Origin: Leucobacter sp. PH1c
GTDB lineage: Bacteria; Actinomycetota; Actinomycetes; Actinomycetales; Microbacteriaceae
Direction of reading: 5' to 3'
NCBI RefSeq assembly: GCF_000633415.1
Contig: NZ_AYMV01000041.1
Location: 1 to 33,521 of the forward strand
DNA length: 33,521 nt
Below are positions 2,269-9,138 of this stretch, in pieces (the stretch's first letter is position 1; every line of letters begins with the position of its first letter). The translations under genes and the position numbers were made by a program. The notes under the pieces are model-generated. The model was not told the DNA's origin. It saw nothing but the letters and a program-made list of their open reading frames with translations, and ran no database searches.

Positions 2269-3084
2269 ATGAAGCAGCACGCAGCGACACGGATCGGAGC
2301 GGTCGTCCTCGCGATCGCCGCAGGCGCCCTCGGGCTCGCCGGCTGCAGCGCAGCCGCCGGCGCGCAGCCCGCGTCGGGCGGCGACGCGAGCGGCCTGACG
2401 ACGATCGAGCCGGGAACCTTCACCTGCTCGATGAGCGGCGAGTACCGCCCCTTCAACTACTTCGACGAGACGGGCACGCTCGTCGGCTTCGACGTCGACA
2501 TGTGCACCGCGATCGCCGAGGAGCTCGGGCTCCAGGCGAAGCCGGTCTCCGCGCCCTTCAACTCGCTCATTGGCGGCCTGCAGGCCGACCGCGCCGACGC
2601 GATCATCGGCTCGCTCGCCGCCACCGAGGAGCGCAAGCAGCAGGTGCTGTTCACCGAGCCGTACTACGAGACGGGGGCCTCGCTCTTCGTGCCCGCCGAC
2701 TCATCGGTCGCCTCGATCGCGGACCTCGACGGGGCCACGGTCGGCGTGACCCTCGGCACCACCTTCGAGGAGTTCGCCCGCGAGCAGGCGAACATCGCCG
2801 AGGTGAAGACCTACCAGGCCGATCCCGACGCGCTGAAGGATCTCGAGACGGGCCGCATCGACGGCGTGATCACCCAGGGCTTTATCGGGAACTACCTCGC
2901 GAAGAATGCCGGCTTCGCCGTCACGGAGGTCGGCGACGTGCTCATCCCCGATGTCGCGGCGATCGCCGTCGGCAAGAAGAACACCGAGCTGCGCGATGCG
3001 ATCGACGTGGCGCTCGCCACCCTGCGCGAGAACGGCACCTACGACGCGCTGAGCCAGGAGTGGTTCGGCGAGAGCCTGGGCTAA
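2269..3084 (+). CDS. ABC transporter solute-binding lipoprotein, SBP_bac_3 (polar amino acid-like) family
   Basis: This 271-residue extracytoplasmic receptor would deliver its ligand to the permease and ATPase encoded next. The start is the ATG at 2269, with AAAGGAG 8 nt upstream; the frame is open further upstream but lacks a better start. The lipobox L23-A-G-C26 predicts lipid attachment at Cys26. Family landmarks are YRPFNYF (59-65), the TEER segment with Arg122 (expected carboxylate ligand), GTTFEEFA (163-170) and GRIDGV (195-200). In HisJ and LAO-binding protein, an Asp five residues after GR-[IL]-D holds the ligand alpha-amino group; here that position is Gln203. This suggests a carboxylate ligand lacking a normal alpha-amino group. 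The family assignment is firm; the ligand is unknown. Confidence 0.92.
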   Translation: MKQHAATRIGAVVLAIAAGALGLAGCSAAAGAQPASGGDASGLTTIEPGTFTCSMSGEYRPFNYFDETGTLVGFDVDMCTAIAEELGLQAKPVSAPFNSLIGGLQADRADAIIGSLAATEERKQQVLFTEPYYETGASLFVPADSSVASIADLDGATVGVTLGTTFEEFAREQANIAEVKTYQADPDALKDLETGRIDGVITQGFIGNYLAKNAGFAVTEVGDVLIPDVAAIAVGKKNTELRDAIDVALATLRENGTYDALSQEWFGESLG

Positions 3085-3126
3085 GCCCCAGCCCACCCAC
3101 CGAAACGAAAGAACGAGAACTCACTG

Positions 3127-3777
3127 ATGGAATTCCTCCAGTCGCTGCTGTCGAGCTGGCCGGTCTTCGTGCAGGGCCTCGGGGTCACGCTCGCACTGAC
3201 GGTGCTGACGCTGATCTTCTCGCTGATCCTCGCCGTGCTCATCACGGCGATGCGGCTCAGCGGGAAGAAGCCCCTCGTCTGGTTCGCCACGGCGTACCTG
3301 GCGGTCATCCGCGGCGTCCCCCTGATCGCGCTCCTGTTCGTGATCTACTTCGGCATCGTGTCCGTCGTGAAGGTCGAGGCCTTCACCGCGGCGGTCGTCG
3401 GCCTCAGCATCCACACCTCCGCCTACGTCTCCGAGATCCTGCGCTCCGGCCTCGCCTCGGTGCCGAACGGTCAGGTCGAGGCCGCGCGCTCGCTCGGCAT
3501 GAGCCGCACCCGCACCCTGCAGAAGGTGGTCGGCCCGCAGGCGATCCGCGTGGTCGTCCCGGCCCTCGCCAACCAGGCGATCATCTCGCTCAAGGACAGC
3601 TCGGTCGCCGCGTTCATCACCGTGGGGGAGCTCTTCATGACAGCGCAGCGGCTGTCGGCCGCCTCGTTCGAGCCGCTGACCTACTACAGCATCGTCAGCA
3701 TCTACTATCTCGCGATCGTGGGGCTCATGACCCTCGGCGTGAACCGCGTCGAAGCGTACTTCCGGAAGCGAGGATAA
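3127..3777 (+). CDS. ABC transporter permease, His/Glu/Gln/Arg (HisMQ) family
   Basis: This 216-residue membrane protein is the usual length for the family. It has several hydrophobic segments, starting around residues 12-45. The EAA loop that contacts the ATPase is clear: [13 protein letters not shown] followed by [16 protein letters not shown]. The ATG start follows an A/G-rich stretch with only a weak ribosome binding site, 42 nt after the binding-protein stop. Only one permease is encoded, so it probably forms a homodimer. Substrate specificity cannot be read from the sequence and is inferred from the neighbouring receptor. Confidence 0.93.
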
Positions 3778-3782
3778 CCCGC

Positions 3783-4559
3783 ATGACCACCACCCTCCCG
3801 GCCTCGGCGGCCACCGGCACCACCCCGCGCGTGCGGATCCGCGACGCGGTGAAGCGCTACGGCGACCACACCGTGCTCGACGGCGTCAACCTCGACGTGG
3901 CCTGCGGCGAGGTCACCGTGCTCATCGGCCCCTCCGGCGCCGGCAAGAGCACGCTGCTGCGCTGCATCAACGGCCTCGAACGCCTCTCCGGCGGCTCGGT
4001 CGAGATCGACGGCGCCCACCTCGACTACCGCGAGCGCACCCTGAACGCCATGCGCCAGGACGTCGGCATGGTGTTCCAGTCCTTCAACCTGTTCCCGCAC
4101 CTCACCGTGCTGCAGAACATCACCCTCGCCCAGCTCTGCGTCGCGAAGCAGGAGCGCGGCGCGGCCGAGGAGACCGCGCTGCAGCTGCTCGACCGGGTCG
4201 GCCTCGCCGCGAAGCGAGACGCCTACCCGCGCTCGCTCTCGGGTGGGCAGCAGCAGCGCGTGGCCATCGCCCGCGCGCTCGCGATGAAGCCGAAGCTCAT
4301 GCTCTTCGACGAGCCCACCTCGGCGCTCGACCCTGAGCTCGTGGGCGAGGTGCTCGCGGTGATGCGCGAGCTCGCGCAGGAGGGGATGACCATGGTCGCC
4401 GTGACGCACGAGATGCGCTTCGCCCGGCAGGTGGCCGACACGATCGCGCTCGTCGCCGACGGCAACATCCAGGAGCAGGGCCCGCCCGAGCGCGTGCTCG
4501 ACGACCCCCAGTCGGAGCGCGGGCGCGCGTTCCTGCGCCAGATCACGGAGGAGGGGTGA
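3783..4559 (+). CDS. ABC transporter ATP-binding protein, polar amino acid type (HisP/GlnQ-like)
   Basis: This 258-residue ATPase should power the importer. Walker A is GPSGAGKST (49-57), the Q-loop is in [13 protein letters not shown], the ABC signature is LSGGQQQR, Walker B is [14 protein letters not shown] and the switch His is in VTHEMRFAR. The HisP/GlnQ-like sequence fits the HisM-type permease 5 nt upstream. The stop codon overlaps the GTG start of the following crotonase gene (GTGA). This translational coupling ties the importer to the CoA-dependent enzymes. Confidence 0.95.
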
Positions 4560-5386
4560 GCGCCTCGGCGCCCCCGGACCCGGCCCCGGATCCGCGCGCG
4601 CTCTTCGGCGACGCCGCGGACTATCCCGCGGCAACGGAGCTCGTGCGCTGCTCGATCACCGGTGAGACCGCCGCGATCGAGCTGGCCCGACCCGAGCGCC
4701 TGAACGCGGCCTCCGCCGAGCTCATCTGGGGCCTCGCGCACGCCCTGCACCGCGTGCGCGAGGCGGGGTGCCGTGCCGTCGTCCTGCGCGGCGCGGGCCG
4801 CGCATTCTGCGCCGGGCACGATCTCAAGGCCCCGCCTCTCCCGCGCCACTCGCCCGCGGCGCGGCTCCACCTCGACCGGCTCCAGTTCGTCAGCCGCACG
4901 CTGCGCGATCCCGAGCTCGTCTCCGTCGCGAACGTGCACGGCTTCGCCTACGGCGCCGGCATCGAGCTCGCCCTCAGCTGCGATTTCGTCGTTGCCGAAC
5001 GCGGCACGCTGTTCCGCTTCCCTGAGGTGTCGGTTGGCCTCTCGGTCACGGGCGGGATATCGTTCTACCTTCCGCAGGCGATCGGGATGCCTCGGGCAAA
5101 GGAGCTCATCATGCTGGGAGAACCGTTCGACGCGCAGACCGCCGTCGAGCTCGGCATGATCACCCGCATCGCCGACGGCGACGCCCGCCACGAGACGAGC
5201 GACCGGATCCTGGCGCGGATCGTCGAGCTGCCGCACGCCGCGTTGGCGCTCGCCAAGGGCACGATCGAACGCGTGTTCGCCGCAGACGCGGAGCGCGCCA
5301 TGTGCCTGGAGATCGAGAACGGGCTGCGCACGGGCGGCGCGGCAGAGGCCGAGCGGGCACGCGCCCGGTTCAGCGGGCGCGCGTGA
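4556..5386 (+). CDS. Enoyl-CoA hydratase/isomerase (crotonase) family protein
   Basis: This 276-residue protein is predicted to bind an acyl-CoA and hydrate or isomerise a double bond. The oxyanion-hole region AFCAGHDLK is at about 83-91. Both catalytic glutamates of true hydratases are present: Glu137 in GAGIELALSCD and Glu157 in FRFPEVSVG, matching Glu144 and Glu164 of rat crotonase. The GTG start overlaps the ATPase stop and the gene's own stop overlaps the next GTG, so it sits in a coupled set. The N-terminal 30 residues are extra relative to the core fold. Hydratase, isomerase or retro-aldol cleavage all remain possible; the retained glutamates favour hydration. Confidence 0.9.
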   Translation: MSASAPPDPAPDPRALFGDAADYPAATELVRCSITGETAAIELARPERLNAASAELIWGLAHALHRVREAGCRAVVLRGAGRAFCAGHDLKAPPLPRHSPAARLHLDRLQFVSRTLRDPELVSVANVHGFAYGAGIELALSCDFVVAERGTLFRFPEVSVGLSVTGGISFYLPQAIGMPRAKELIMLGEPFDAQTAVELGMITRIADGDARHETSDRILARIVELPHAALALAKGTIERVFAADAERAMCLEIENGLRTGGAAEAERARARFSGRA

Positions 5387-7050
5387 GCCCCGCCCAGCTC
5401 CCGGCACTCGCGGGGCGCGTGGTGCAGGATCTCGCGCAGCCGCCCGGCTTCGTGCGCATCCCGCTCGACGCCGCGGCCGACATCGGCGGCCTCGTGGAGC
5501 GTGCGGCCCGGCTCTGGCCCGAGCGCGTGGCCTGGCGCTTCGACCCGAGCGGGGAATGGCTGAGCTTCGCCGAGGTCGAACGGCGCACCCGTGCGCTCGC
5601 CGCCGCGCTCGCCGCCGACGGGATCGGCCCGGGGGACCGCGTGGCGCTCCTCGCGCCGAACAGCCCGGCGTTCCCCCTCAGCTGGATCGCGCTCGCGCGG
5701 CTCGGCGCCACCACGGTGCCGGTGAACGTGCGCTACCGCCGTCGCGACCTCGCCCACGTGCTCCGGGCGAGCGCGCCGAAGCTGCTGCTCGCCGCGCCGT
5801 GCGCGCTCGAGACCGCGGCGGCAGCGGCGGCCTACGCCGAGAGCTCCGTGCGCGTGGTCGACCTCGACGCGTACCTCGCGGCAGCGGGCGGCAGCGCCGC
5901 CGATCCCGGGCTCCCCGCCGATCCCGGGCTCCCCGCCGACACTGCGCTCCCCGCCAGCGCCCCCGGACCCGACGCCGTCGCGAACATCCAGTTCACCTCG
6001 GGCACCACGGGGCCGCCCAAGGGCTGCGTGCTGAGCCACCGCTACTGGCTCGCCCTCGCCTGGACCCTGATGCGCGAGGCGCCCGGCATCACCGCCGAGG
6101 ACGTGCTCTTCACGGCCCAGCCGATGTCGTACATCGATCCGCAGTGGAATGTGATCGTCGCGCTCGCCGCGGGCGCCGAGCTCGTCGTCGCCGACGGCTT
6201 CCACCCCACCACCTTCTGGGAGCGCGTGCGCCACTACGGCGTCACCTACTTCTACTGCCTCGGGCTGATGCCCGTGCTCCTCGAGCGCATGCCGCCGAGC
6301 CCCGAGGACCGTGCGCACCGCGTGCGGCTGATCCAGGCCTCCGCGATCCCGCCCGCGCTTCACCGCACGCTCGAGGAGCGCTGGGGCGCCCCCTGGCTCG
6401 AGGCCTTCGGCATGACGGAGACGGGCTCCGACCTCTTCATGCCCGAGATCGAGGGCTCCCGCTTCGCGGCGAGCAGCTGGATCGGCGTGCCCCGGGCCCA
6501 CCGCGAGGCCGCCGTCGTGACCCCCGCGGGCGACGTCGCCCGGGCGGGGGAGCGCGGCGAGCTCTGGATCCGCGGCGACGGCCTCTTCCTCGGCTACCTC
6601 GGGGAGGAGGACCGCGGATCGGATCCCGACGCGTGGTTCCCCACAGGCGACATCGTGCAGCACGACGGCGCCGGGCGCATCGCCTACGTCGGCCGCACGA
6701 AAGACATGATCCGCCGTTCCGGGGAGAACGTCTCGGCCGTCGAGGTGGAGAGCGTCATCACGGCGCACCCCGCCGTGCAGGTCTCGGCCGTGACCGGGCT
6801 GCCCGACGAGCTCCGCGGCGAAGAGGTCGCCTGCTTCGTACTCCGCGAGCCCGGTGACGCGCGCGCCGACGCCGAGCTGTTCCGCGATCTGGCCGAATAC
6901 TGCGCTGCGGAGCTCGCGAGCTTCAAGATTCCCCGATACTGGAAAGCGGTAACGAAGTTCCCGCGGACGGCTTCCGAACGCGTGGCGAAGCACAGGCTCT
7001 CGGAGTCGCTCGATCGATCGAGCTTCTGGGACTTGCGAAGCGAGAGGTAA
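5383..7050 (+). CDS. Acyl-CoA ligase (AMP-binding, CaiC/crotonobetaine-CoA ligase-like)
   Basis: This 555-residue protein should activate a carboxylate to its CoA thioester through an acyl-AMP. The GTG at 5383 overlaps the crotonase stop (GTGA). Motifs in order are FTSGTTGPPKGCVLSH (ATP/phosphate loop, about 205-220), AFGMTETGSD, the WFPTGD hinge region, and GRTKDMIRRSGENVS. The C-terminal A10 segment reads TASERVAKHRL: Arg533 takes the place of the usual catalytic Lys (normally GK), with Lys536 three residues on. From memory this ER-V-x-K form occurs in carnitine/crotonobetaine-CoA ligase-like families. Residues about 170-198 form a Pro/Ala-rich linker with a repeated ADPGLP unit. The substrate is unknown. 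Confidence 0.9.
   Translation: MSPAQLPALAGRVVQDLAQPPGFVRIPLDAAADIGGLVERAARLWPERVAWRFDPSGEWLSFAEVERRTRALAAALAADGIGPGDRVALLAPNSPAFPLSWIALARLGATTVPVNVRYRRRDLAHVLRASAPKLLLAAPCALETAAAAAAYAESSVRVVDLDAYLAAAGGSAADPGLPADPGLPADTALPASAPGPDAVANIQFTSGTTGPPKGCVLSHRYWLALAWTLMREAPGITAEDVLFTAQPMSYIDPQWNVIVALAAGAELVVADGFHPTTFWERVRHYGVTYFYCLGLMPVLLERMPPSPEDRAHRVRLIQASAIPPALHRTLEERWGAPWLEAFGMTETGSDLFMPEIEGSRFAASSWIGVPRAHREAAVVTPAGDVARAGERGELWIRGDGLFLGYLGEEDRGSDPDAWFPTGDIVQHDGAGRIAYVGRTKDMIRRSGENVSAVEVESVITAHPAVQVSAVTGLPDELRGEEVACFVLREPGDARADAELFRDLAEYCAAELASFKIPRYWKAVTKFPRTASERVAKHRLSESLDRSSFWDLRSER
7008..7023. promoter_or_regulatory. 16-bp palindrome ahead of tetR, candidate autoregulatory site
   Basis: GCTCGATCGATCGAGC is a perfect dyad within the end of the ligase gene, 33 nt before the tetR start. 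It shares the GATCGATC core with the larger palindrome at 2183-2206. Because it is coding DNA, chance and codon constraint remain possible explanations. Confidence 0.35.
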
Positions 7051-7056
7051 CCCCAG

Positions 7057-7815
7057 ATGACGAGCCCGGCCCTGAACGAACTGCAGCAGCTCGCCGTTCC
7101 CGCCCTCCCCACCGGCACCCACCTGCGCGTGCTCGAAGCGGCGCTGCACCTCTTCGCGCGCAACGGCTACAACGCCACGGGCATCCGCGAGATCGCCACC
7201 CACAGCGGCCTCACCTCCTCGACGCTGTACCACTACGCGGGGACGAAGGATCAGCTGCTCGCCCAGATCCTCGGCGACTCGCTCGAGCGGTACACGATCG
7301 CCTCCGAATTCCTGAACGAGCACTGCACCGATCCCGCCGAACTGCTCGCGCAGCTCGTCTGGCTGCACGTCGTGACGCACGCGCTGCAGCGCGATTCCGC
7401 GCTCGTCGGCGACTCAGAGATCGACAACCTCGGCCCCGAGGATCGCGCGCGCGTGGTCGCCCAGCGCGACCACTACGAGCGGATCTGGCAGGACGCCATC
7501 CGCCGCGGCGTCGCGAGCGGCAGCTTCACCGTGCGCGACGAGCGGATCGTGCGCCTTGCGCTGCTCGAGACCTGCACGAGCGTGTCCCACTGGTTCTCGC
7601 GCGACGGGGAGCTCTCGGCCGCCGAGGTGGCCGACCGCTTCATCGACATCGCGTTCGCGATGCTGCGCCACGAACCGAGCGGCACCGAGATCCCCACGGG
7701 CGACGATCACCTCGCCGGTGCCCTCGTGAGCCGGGTCTGGGGCATCAGCGCTGACGAGTACGCCGGGCGGGCGACCGCCGCCCGCTCCGACACCGACGAC
7801 GGGAGTTCCTCATGA
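7057..7815 (+). CDS. TetR/AcrR-family transcriptional regulator
   Basis: This 252-residue protein has an N-terminal helix-turn-helix at about residues 24-68 (LFARNGYNATGIREIA, then SGLTSSTLYHYAGTKDQL). A larger helical ligand-binding domain follows. GAGAGG, overlapping the ligase stop, lies 8 nt before the ATG. The gene sits inside the cluster, 6 nt after the ligase and overlapping the SDR gene by 4 nt. It is therefore the obvious candidate regulator of the pathway, probably responding to the substrate or its CoA ester. A Ser/Asp-rich tail ends the protein. Target sites are proposed at 2183-2206 and 7008-7023. Confidence 0.92.
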   Translation: MTSPALNELQQLAVPALPTGTHLRVLEAALHLFARNGYNATGIREIATHSGLTSSTLYHYAGTKDQLLAQILGDSLERYTIASEFLNEHCTDPAELLAQLVWLHVVTHALQRDSALVGDSEIDNLGPEDRARVVAQRDHYERIWQDAIRRGVASGSFTVRDERIVRLALLETCTSVSHWFSRDGELSAAEVADRFIDIAFAMLRHEPSGTEIPTGDDHLAGALVSRVWGISADEYAGRATAARSDTDDGSSS

Positions 7816-8675
7816 CCGACACTGCTGCCACTGATGCCGCTGCCACCGCTGCCACCGCTGCAGCGTCCGCACGCGCAGCCGCACCCGTGCCCGGCCCCGG
7901 AACCGCGGGGCTCGCCGGCCCCGGCGCCGGGCGCTGCGCCATCGTGACGGGCGGCGGGCGCGGGATCGGCCGCGCCACCGCCCGCGAGCTCGCCGCCCGC
8001 GGCTGGGCCGTGGCCCTCTTCGACCTCGACCCCGCCGGGCTCGACGAGACCGCCCGGCTCATCCGCGAGGCAGGCGGGCGCGCCGCGGGCTTCGCCGTCG
8101 ACGTGTCCGACGAAGACGCCGTGGCCGCGGGCGTCGCCGCGGCGGCCGCCGAGCTCGGAGCGCCCCTCGTACTCGTGAACAACGCGGGCGTGCTGCGCGA
8201 CGACTTCCTCTTCCGCGCCACCCTCGACGACTGGGACCTCATCATGAACGTGCACCTGCGCGGGGCGTTCCTCATGAGCCGTGCCGTGCAGCGCTTCATG
8301 GTCGAGGCCGGCTGGGGGCGCATCGTCAACCTGTCGAGCACCTCGGCGCTCGGCAACGCGGGGCAGAGCAACTACTCGGCGGCGAAGGCCGGCATCCAGG
8401 GCCTCACCAAGACCCTCGCGCTCGAGCTCGGCAAGTTCGGGATCACGGCGAACGCCGTCGCCCCCGGATTCATCGCGACCGACATGACGCGCGCGACGGC
8501 CGCGCGCCAGGGCATCACCTTCGAGGAGCTCGCCGAGCGCGTCTCGGCGGCCACCGCCGTGCGCCGCATGGGCGATCCCGCCGATATCGCGCACGCGATC
8601 GCGTTCTTCGTCGCAGAGGAGAGCAGCTTCGTCTCGGGGCAGGTGCTCTACGTCTCGGGCGGGCCGAATGCCTGA
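7812..8675 (+). CDS. SDR-family dehydrogenase (FabG-like 3-hydroxyacyl-CoA/ketoacyl reductase)
   Basis: This 287-residue NAD(P)-dependent oxidoreductase has the cofactor motif TGGGRGIG (46-53), NNAG (123-126), catalytic Asn147, Ser in NLSSTSA, Tyr188 and Lys192 (YSAAK). It probably oxidises a 3-hydroxyacyl-CoA produced by the upstream crotonase, or acts in the reverse direction. The ATG overlaps the tetR stop (ATGA) and has GGGAG 6 nt upstream, which supports the long form. The first 40 residues are an unusual Ala/Thr then Pro/Gly-rich extension, encoded by imprecise GCTGCCACC-type repeats. A shorter native start cannot be excluded. Confidence 0.9.
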   Translation: MTDTAATDAAATAATAAASARAAAPVPGPGTAGLAGPGAGRCAIVTGGGRGIGRATARELAARGWAVALFDLDPAGLDETARLIREAGGRAAGFAVDVSDEDAVAAGVAAAAAELGAPLVLVNNAGVLRDDFLFRATLDDWDLIMNVHLRGAFLMSRAVQRFMVEAGWGRIVNLSSTSALGNAGQSNYSAAKAGIQGLTKTLALELGKFGITANAVAPGFIATDMTRATAARQGITFEELAERVSAATAVRRMGDPADIAHAIAFFVAEESSFVSGQVLYVSGGPNA

Positions 8676-9138
8676 TCCCGCACCCGTCGAGTTCGCGGGG
8701 CTCGCCGCCCTCCGCGCCGCCGCGGGCCGCGAGCTGGGGCCGAGCGGCTGGTTCGCCGTGACCCAGGAGCGCGTCGACGACTTCGCCCGCGTCACCGAGG
8801 ACTGGCAGCCCATCCACTGCGACCCGGCGGTGGCCGCGGCGAGCCTGTTCGGCGGCACGATCGCGCACGGCTACCTCTCCGTCGCGCTGCTCTCGCGCTT
8901 CGCCCGCGAGCTGTACACGATCACCGGCACGCGCACGGTGGTGAACTACGGGCTCGATCGCGTGCGCTTCCCCGCGCCGCTGCGCGTGGGCGCCCGGGTG
9001 CGCGCCCGGGCCCAGATCGGCGCGGCGGCCGAGCGCGGAGCGCTGCTCGACGTGCCCGTCACCTACACGCTCGAAGCGGAGGGCGAGGCGCGTCCCGTGC
9101 TCGTGGCCGAGACCCGGATCCTGGTCGACGCGGCCTGA
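8668..9138 (+). CDS. MaoC-like (R)-specific enoyl-CoA hydratase, hotdog fold
   Basis: This 156-residue single-hotdog protein carries the MaoC/hydratase-2 active-site segment VTEDWQPIHCDPAVAAAS, with the expected catalytic pair Asp45 and His50. GGTIAHGYLSVALL follows, the usual lid and helix region. It would hydrate a trans-2-enoyl-CoA or dehydrate the matching hydroxyacyl-CoA with stereochemistry opposite to crotonases. The ATG lies within the end of the SDR gene (8-nt overlap). It is the last gene of the cluster; no clear hairpin follows before parA. Confidence 0.88.
   Translation: MPDPAPVEFAGLAALRAAAGRELGPSGWFAVTQERVDDFARVTEDWQPIHCDPAVAAASLFGGTIAHGYLSVALLSRFARELYTITGTRTVVNYGLDRVRFPAPLRVGARVRARAQIGAAAERGALLDVPVTYTLEAEGEARPVLVAETRILVDAA

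Follow-up and report, generated by a model that had tools for sequence, protein, structure and literature searches.

An operon of Leucobacter, probably controlled by its TetR, that couples an ABC importer to CoA chemistry and may serve the degradation of a β-amino acid

The stretch of DNA considered here (the window, 33,521 nucleotides) is contig 41 (NZ_AYMV01000041.1) of the 3.12-Mb genome of Leucobacter sp. PH1c, and it carries on its + strand an operon of eight genes (2269-9138) that joins an ATP-binding cassette (ABC) importer to enzymes of coenzyme A (CoA) chemistry and to a TetR regulator. From comparisons of sequence, we propose that this operon is inducible and repressed by its TetR, and that it would import and degrade a carboxylic acid devoid of a free α-amino group, for which a β-amino acid is the leading, if still tentative, candidate. 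In the proposed route, the importer would take up the β-amino acid, the ligase would convert it to its CoA ester, and the crotonase would eliminate ammonia to give a 2-enoyl-CoA. The MaoC hydratase would then hydrate this product to (R)-3-hydroxyacyl-CoA, and the short-chain dehydrogenase (SDR) would oxidise the latter, before a thiolase, which lies in the cluster in Cryobacterium and is encoded elsewhere in Leucobacter, releases acetyl-CoA. In relatives, the amino acid would probably be set free from amides by amidohydrolases, and the shortened product by a hot-dog thioesterase. The TetR would repress its own operon at a GATC-repeat operator.

That a ligase and an elimination enzyme occur together with a hydratase and a dehydrogenase of their own makes sense if the crotonase first removes the group on C3, and two hydratase-fold enzymes in the absence of a dehydrogenase fit an elimination followed by a hydration. 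Ammonia is favored as the leaving group, and a β-amino acid as the substrate, because nitrogen is suggested both by the classes of transporter and by the amide hydrolases found in relatives, and because the binding protein lacks the clamp for an α-amino group. Amine-free enoic acids and carnitine-like compounds, from which water would leave, rank after a β-amino acid.

The crotonase and the ligase

The crotonase (4556-5386, + strand, GTG start) is the proposed CoA ammonia lyase. Both catalytic Glu, already recognized in the sequence-only reading of this DNA, are found in it and in all of the best 120 of its 1118 homologues (its own entry included). At the position of the loop proline, a column defined from 2pbp, the window protein has Val, and these 120 sequences have Val (115) or Ile (5) and never Pro. 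This is the combination given for the crotonase-type CoA ammonia lyases BvaB1/B2, which keep both Glu and miss the loop Pro, in the sections of Otzen et al. drawn on here (PMC4619459). The loop Pro is present in 2pbp and in CaiD of Escherichia coli. Six other crotonase-fold loci exist in the genome, of which L001, L006 and L007 have the Pro, and L002 and L003 are without the second Glu.

An elimination of ammonia by this enzyme would dispense with an acyl-CoA dehydrogenase. As the sequence-only reading had stated, neither an acyl-CoA dehydrogenase nor a thiolase is found among the eight genes, which thus do not make up a complete β-oxidation operon. The genome carries both elsewhere, with four matches to the acyl-CoA dehydrogenase N-domain and six match segments for thiolase in four places (contigs C46, C1, C21 and C7). 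The earlier suggestion that the chain is shortened by a retro-aldol reaction was dropped in view of these thiolases and of the thiolase gene that stands in 5/5 Cryobacterium clusters.

The same reading had also suggested that the substrate is already unsaturated. A simple unsaturated acid (2- or 3-enoic), or an aromatic one, would be activated by the ligase, isomerised or hydrated by the crotonase and passed on to MaoC, the SDR and the thiolase, the importer having switched to carboxylates without an amino group. This would account for an operon without dehydrogenase and for a binding protein that has lost Asp161 and kept Arg77 (see below), and it would agree with the names of the crotonases, since many homologues are called PaaG-type isomerase by JGI and the best NCBIfam model for the window protein is PaaG, below its cut-off. 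However, with a 2-enoic substrate MaoC would make the crotonase, the invariable companion of the ligase, superfluous, and the GABA (γ-aminobutyrate)-permease-like partner and the amidohydrolases seen in relatives indicate nitrogen compounds. We consider such a substrate unlikely, although it comes first among the alternatives, and a crotonase that releases ammonia would account at least equally well for the lack of a dehydrogenase.

The crotonase gene is followed by that of an AMP-forming acyl-CoA ligase (5383-7050, + strand, GTG start), with a YIDPQW motif that includes Asp252; the YxDPQW motif with its Asp, which lies in A4, is found in 119 of the best 120 of 1454 ligase homologues, a point in favor of the β-amino acid. 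Models and source names for this ligase often read crotonobetaine/carnitine-CoA ligase, which brings in another possible substrate, carnitine or another 3-hydroxy acid. The ligase would then make a 3-hydroxyacyl-CoA that the crotonase dehydrates and MaoC hydrates again with the opposite stereochemistry, the two acting as an epimerase, and the SDR and thiolase would finish the route. Identity amounts to 29.8% over 500 aa between the ligase and E. coli CaiC and to 27% over 186 aa between the crotonase and CaiD, the loss of Asp161 in the binding protein suits carnitine as well, and the 4HBT thioesterase near 5/5 Cryobacterium clusters could free the shortened acid. Membership of the CaiC and CaiD families was nevertheless rejected on these identities and on the scores, as the ligase reaches 230 bits against PRK08008 (CaiC), for which the cut-off is 651. 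Moreover, CaiD has the loop Pro that is missing from the family of the window crotonase, none of the eight genes is CaiA-, CaiB- or CaiT-like, family-3 binding proteins usually take amino acids, and the amide hydrolases that neighbor the genes in relatives would be left unexplained. A carnitine-like substrate is thus also improbable, and we place it just after the enoic and aromatic acids.

The binding protein of the importer

The importer is made of a family-3 solute-binding protein (SBP; 2269-3084, + strand; PF00497, 132 bits for a cut-off of 26.4), an ABC permease of the polar amino-acid HEQRo type (3127-3777, + strand; TIGR01726, 86 bits for a cut-off of 42.2) and a GlnQ/EhuA-like ABC ATPase (3783-4559, + strand), which scores under both cut-offs. 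With an SBP_bac_3 binding protein and a HEQRo-type permease both above their cut-offs, it belongs by its protein families to the polar amino-acid ABC importers. The sequence-only reading had found it odd that an importer of this class should feed CoA activation, and this oddity was well placed, since the Asp that binds the α-ammonium group is gone from the binding protein.

We aligned the best 120 of 127 homologues (own protein included) with E. coli ArgT and HisJ, and we use LAO numbering for the columns. The window SBP keeps Tyr14 (as Tyr59), Phe52 (Phe97), Arg77 (Arg122) and Thr121 (Thr165), and it has Ser56 for Asp11, Ala117 for Ser72 and Gln203 for Asp161. The Arg77 column, which serves the carboxylate, is Arg in 120/120. 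When the alignment is split at rank 65, a limit that was chosen after inspecting it, the Asp161 column of the 65 nearest sequences reads Gln 51, Val 4, Thr 3, Ser 3, Asn 3, Ala 1 and Asp 0, and that of the other 55 reads Asp 43, Gln 1 (P0093, a fragment with clade-like motifs) and 11 gaps. Asp161 is therefore found in 43/44 ungapped homologues outside the clade versus 0/65 inside. A second SBP from this clade, which again has Gln in the column, follows HydB in two Cryobacterium loci (L074 2243-3070, L075 18828-19664).

In LAO, Ser72 and Asp161 hold the α-amine, and NocT, which is without both, does not bind arginine, according to the portion of PMC4192606 used here. The loss of Asp161 is thus suggestive of a ligand without an ordinary α-amino group.

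Such a ligand could also be an amino acid that is N-substituted or opine-like, or else an ω-amino acid of greater length. Its carbon chain would undergo the CoA chemistry with the help of an acyl-CoA dehydrogenase encoded at another place in the genome. OccJ has Asn and NocT Ser in the Asp161 column, as far as the cited parts of these accounts go, HydA and HydB related to caprolactamase and N-methylhydantoinase lie beside 4/5 Cryobacterium clusters, and the genome does hold acyl-CoA dehydrogenases. However, an ω-amino acid would require such a dehydrogenase, and the genome has no further operator site (at ≤1 mismatch) beyond those of the operon. We see this as the least probable of the three alternatives, well behind a β-amino acid.

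The TetR and its predicted operator

The TetR (7057-7815, + strand; TetR_N and TetR_C_24 domains) has LYHYAGTK in its recognition helix, and its predicted site is a palindromic operator, TTCGATCGATCGATCGATCGAA, at 2184-2205, just after a promoter-like TGCTACATT that is common to the loci of two other Leucobacter genomes (L020 and L021). A second copy with one mismatch (7006-7021) falls within the last part of the ligase gene, immediately ahead of tetR, and is also present in L020 and L021. In the whole genome, TCGATCGATCGATCGA (≤1 mismatch) is confined to these two sites, the one ahead of the SBP gene and the one within the ligase gene, and a reversed control pattern gave 0 matches in the same genome.

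The GATC-repeat palindrome stands 5' of the SBP gene in the window, in L020 and L021, in the Cryobacterium loci L025, L074, L075 and L076, and in L095, from another family of the order. In Cryobacterium L026 a phosphotriesterase-like gene intervenes, and the palindrome, which precedes it, is about 1.1 kb upstream of the SBP gene. L025, L026, L074 and L075 have a second copy before the ligase gene. Overall, CGATCGATCG is present in 14/30 loci examined, for an expectation from base composition of about 0.004-0.03 per locus, and these are all 14 of the loci whose TetR has LYHY[AM]GTK in the recognition helix. It is absent in L027, L046 and L089, in which the adjacent TetR has another helix, and in the 13 loci for which no such TetR was called. 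At the scale of genomes, zero-mismatch YCGATCGATCGATCGR sites were found in 12/15, every one inside the gene module. Five one-mismatch sites lie outside it (two in G754 and one each in G078, G1136 and G840), and the module of G840 has no site at ≤1 mismatch. In both Actinomadura genomes the operator site precedes the amidohydrolase gene, which ties that gene to the same regulon, and the GATC-repeat operator is common to genomes of four families. We infer that the palindrome is the operator of the TetR, the effector of which would be an acid or a CoA ester. A literature search on the operator string gave nothing on topic, judged by titles and abstract openings.

Conservation of the module

In the sampled genomes, absence carries little weight where scoring was limited to three to four candidates in each genome; in the surveys of the two genera, up to 24-26 were scored. 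The ligase was found in 3/54 genomes of the genus, own included, in 5/57 Cryobacterium genomes and, at E≤1e-60, in 12/299 genomes of the family, 9 of them at ≤43% identity. Among named organisms, Leucobacter chromiireducens and Leucobacter sp. 7(1) carry its nearest relatives.

L020 and L021 have all eight genes in unchanged order. The five Cryobacterium clusters also keep the eight genes in this order, from SBP to MaoC, with a thiolase gene added between tetR and the SDR gene in 5/5. A GNAT gene on the opposite strand separates crotonase and ligase in 4/5 (not L076), HydA and HydB, of the hydantoinase/oxoprolinase kind, adjoin 4/5 (not L076), and so does an Amidohydro_3 protein (not L025; called as two pieces in L075). 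This gene order, kept across two genera, indicates that the arrangement is not due to chance. L095 combines the importer with crotonase, ligase and TetR, and an Amidohydro_3 gene lies there on the opposite strand.

The core is also found without this importer. In Actinomadura (L022 and L023), the genes for TetR, crotonase and ligase are grouped with those for an Amidohydro_3 protein, a 4HBT thioesterase and an amino-acid permease, and the best score of the L022 permease is to GABA permease (487 bits, cut-off 678). The 4HBT gene of Actinomadura led us to consider, as a conceivable alternative, a set of ligase, crotonase and thioesterase of the 4-chlorobenzoate type. In the Nocardioides family (f8), L090, L091, L092, L094 and L096 have crotonase, ligase and amidohydrolase genes in a row, with TetR alongside in 3/5 and this importer absent. 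L089 and L093 have the crotonase and ligase without importer or amidohydrolase. The crotonase-ligase pair is present in all 11 more distant loci (L046-L056), 10/11 of which are without this importer, and the eleventh, L046, has a TetR, an amino-acid ABC importer of another kind and a TRAP transporter. L048-L056, from further actinobacterial genomes, have varied neighbors and neither the operator nor this importer.

The sequence-only reading held that importer and CoA genes form one unit, and that their free separation in homologous clusters would speak against it. The importer is indeed absent beside some pairs, yet it is coupled to them in three Leucobacter, five Cryobacterium and, in part, L095, under a common operator motif. 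It can thus be seen as a partner in some lineages, and not as an obligate part.

Remaining genes of the operon

The last two genes encode a FabG-like SDR (7812-8675, + strand), a proposed (R)-3-hydroxyacyl-CoA dehydrogenase, and a MaoC hydratase (8668-9138, + strand), a proposed (R)-specific enoyl-CoA hydratase, the closest solved relative of which is Rv0130. The Asp-His pair of the latter was judged by eye against the motif of such hydratases. The SDR gene adjoins that of MaoC also in the Cryobacterium clusters and in L031 (12790-15907), from another genus of the family, in which the pair is 50% (MaoC) and 62% (SDR) identical to that of the window and lies near a thiolase gene (54% to the Cryobacterium thiolase) and a distant ligase gene (33%).

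The eight genes form the single-strand unit of importer, ligase, crotonase, SDR, MaoC and TetR that had been described. They were said to overlap mostly by 4-8 nt, which applies to four of the seven junctions: from SBP to MaoC these measure +42, +5, -4, -4, +6, -4 and -8 nt, so that gaps of 42, 5 and 6 nt separate the genes at the remaining three. Upstream of the operon, at the contig end, a predicted protein of 644 aa with a signal-like start is encoded on the - strand (2-1933), where L020 and L021 have other genes.

Points that weigh against a β-amino acid

Several of the findings pull against the proposed route. For the binding protein, the loss of Asp161 also fits opines, betaines and plain carboxylates, and the change of Ser72 to Ala was discarded as a marker, for that column varies on both sides of the split. 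In the excerpts of PMC5740067 used here, OccJ, which has Asn at the Asp161 position, has a micromolar affinity for arginine, and its N202D variant, in which the Asp is restored, binds octopine and arginine as the wild type does. This position alone does therefore not settle the ligand, and our confidence in a β-amino acid is slightly lowered. The two SBPs of the L046 importer, which stands beside a TetR-crotonase-ligase group without the operator, keep Asp161.

For the crotonase, the loop-Pro column comes from 2pbp and not from the rat or Bva sequences, and the loss of this Pro is not unique, as the paralogue L004 of the same genome has Ala there. In amino-acid adenylation domains, the amine, which may be a β-amino group, is bound by an A4 Asp (PMC11253843, in the part relevant here), and Asp252 of the ligase was tried in this role. 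It aligns one column off and CaiC has an Asp there too, so an amine-binding role is not claimed. The A10 catalytic Lys is replaced by Arg in the window ligase and in at least 113 of the best 120 of 1454 homologues (93 ER, 17 QR, 2 LR and 1 HR, for 1 EK and 6 sequences unmatched by the pattern). The ligase also comes from another subfamily than BvaA, known to us by its description as phenylacetate-CoA-ligase-like, and no phenylacetate ligase is among the best 25 of 105 NCBIfam models; BvaA did not accept β-lysine, in the results of PMC4619459 considered here. Finally, MaoC, SDR and thiolase were seen with the crotonase-ligase pair only in two Microbacteriaceae genera.

Relation to known systems and significance

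The CoA-dependent deamination of a β-amino acid by a crotonase is already known, from the one route that we found in the literature, the BvaA-BvaB1/BvaB2 β-valine pathway of Pseudomonas sp. SBV1 (PMC4619459). In the parts of that account used here, amino-acid transporter, CoA-ligase and crotonase genes also stand in a row, the ligase and crotonase genes share a base, and the crotonase makes enoyl-CoA from β-aminoacyl-CoA, an activity that was shown there and is predicted here. The differences are that the ligase is phenylacetate-CoA-ligase-like, that a single permease takes the place of the ABC importer, and that a 3-methylcrotonyl-CoA route takes that of MaoC, SDR and thiolase; ABC importer, operator and MaoC/SDR/thiolase tail do not appear in those parts. 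The ligase and crotonase of the caiTABCDE system of E. coli fall in the same broad families as those of the operon, but identity is low, the ligase score is far below the CaiC cut-off, and both the transporter and the crotonase loop differ. The importer has the binding-protein, permease and ATPase families and the carboxylate Arg of the LAO/HisJ and OccJ/NocT systems; the lost Asp161 sets it apart from LAO/HisJ.

The MaoC, FabG-like SDR and thiolase genes that stand together in Cryobacterium, and near each other in L031, presumably correspond to the actinobacterial (R)-β-oxidation trio, with a resemblance to Rv0241c-Rv0243. Unlike this trio, they are linked here to ligase, crotonase and importer, and the Leucobacter operon has no thiolase. 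Searches of the literature found nothing for Cryobacterium with β-amino acid, and nothing on topic, judged by titles, for Leucobacter with carnitine.

It is conceivable, though we hold it with less confidence than the β-amino acid itself, that the module is an independently assembled actinobacterial pathway for β-amino acids, of which β-lysine or N-acetyl-β-lysine may be the substrate, with a clamp-less importer, a 'carnitine-CoA' ligase, an ammonia-lyase crotonase and a repressor of the GATC operator. The lead toward β-lysine is a lysine-2,3-aminomutase-like gene beside the module amidohydrolase (L090 12897-14363; TIGR03820, E 2.5e-48, below cut-off), and such a gene stands beside the module in five f8 genomes: that of L090, G910 (L091), G949 (L094), G889 (L096) and G840 (L099). 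This lead is a weak one, since the gene also resides without the module: among the 18 f8 loci that have it (L097-L114), 5 have the module amidohydrolase alongside and 13 do not, and in G982 module and aminomutase-like gene are on different contigs. The PH1c genome has no match to the KamA-like gene.

The bacterial breakdown of β-amino acids is thinly mapped. If the proposed route is correct, the operator and the loss of Asp161 would together provide a genetic handle to find such routes across Actinobacteria, the name carnitine-CoA ligase would be questioned for a large family of ligases, and the importers and ammonia lyases may be of use for making β-amino acids.

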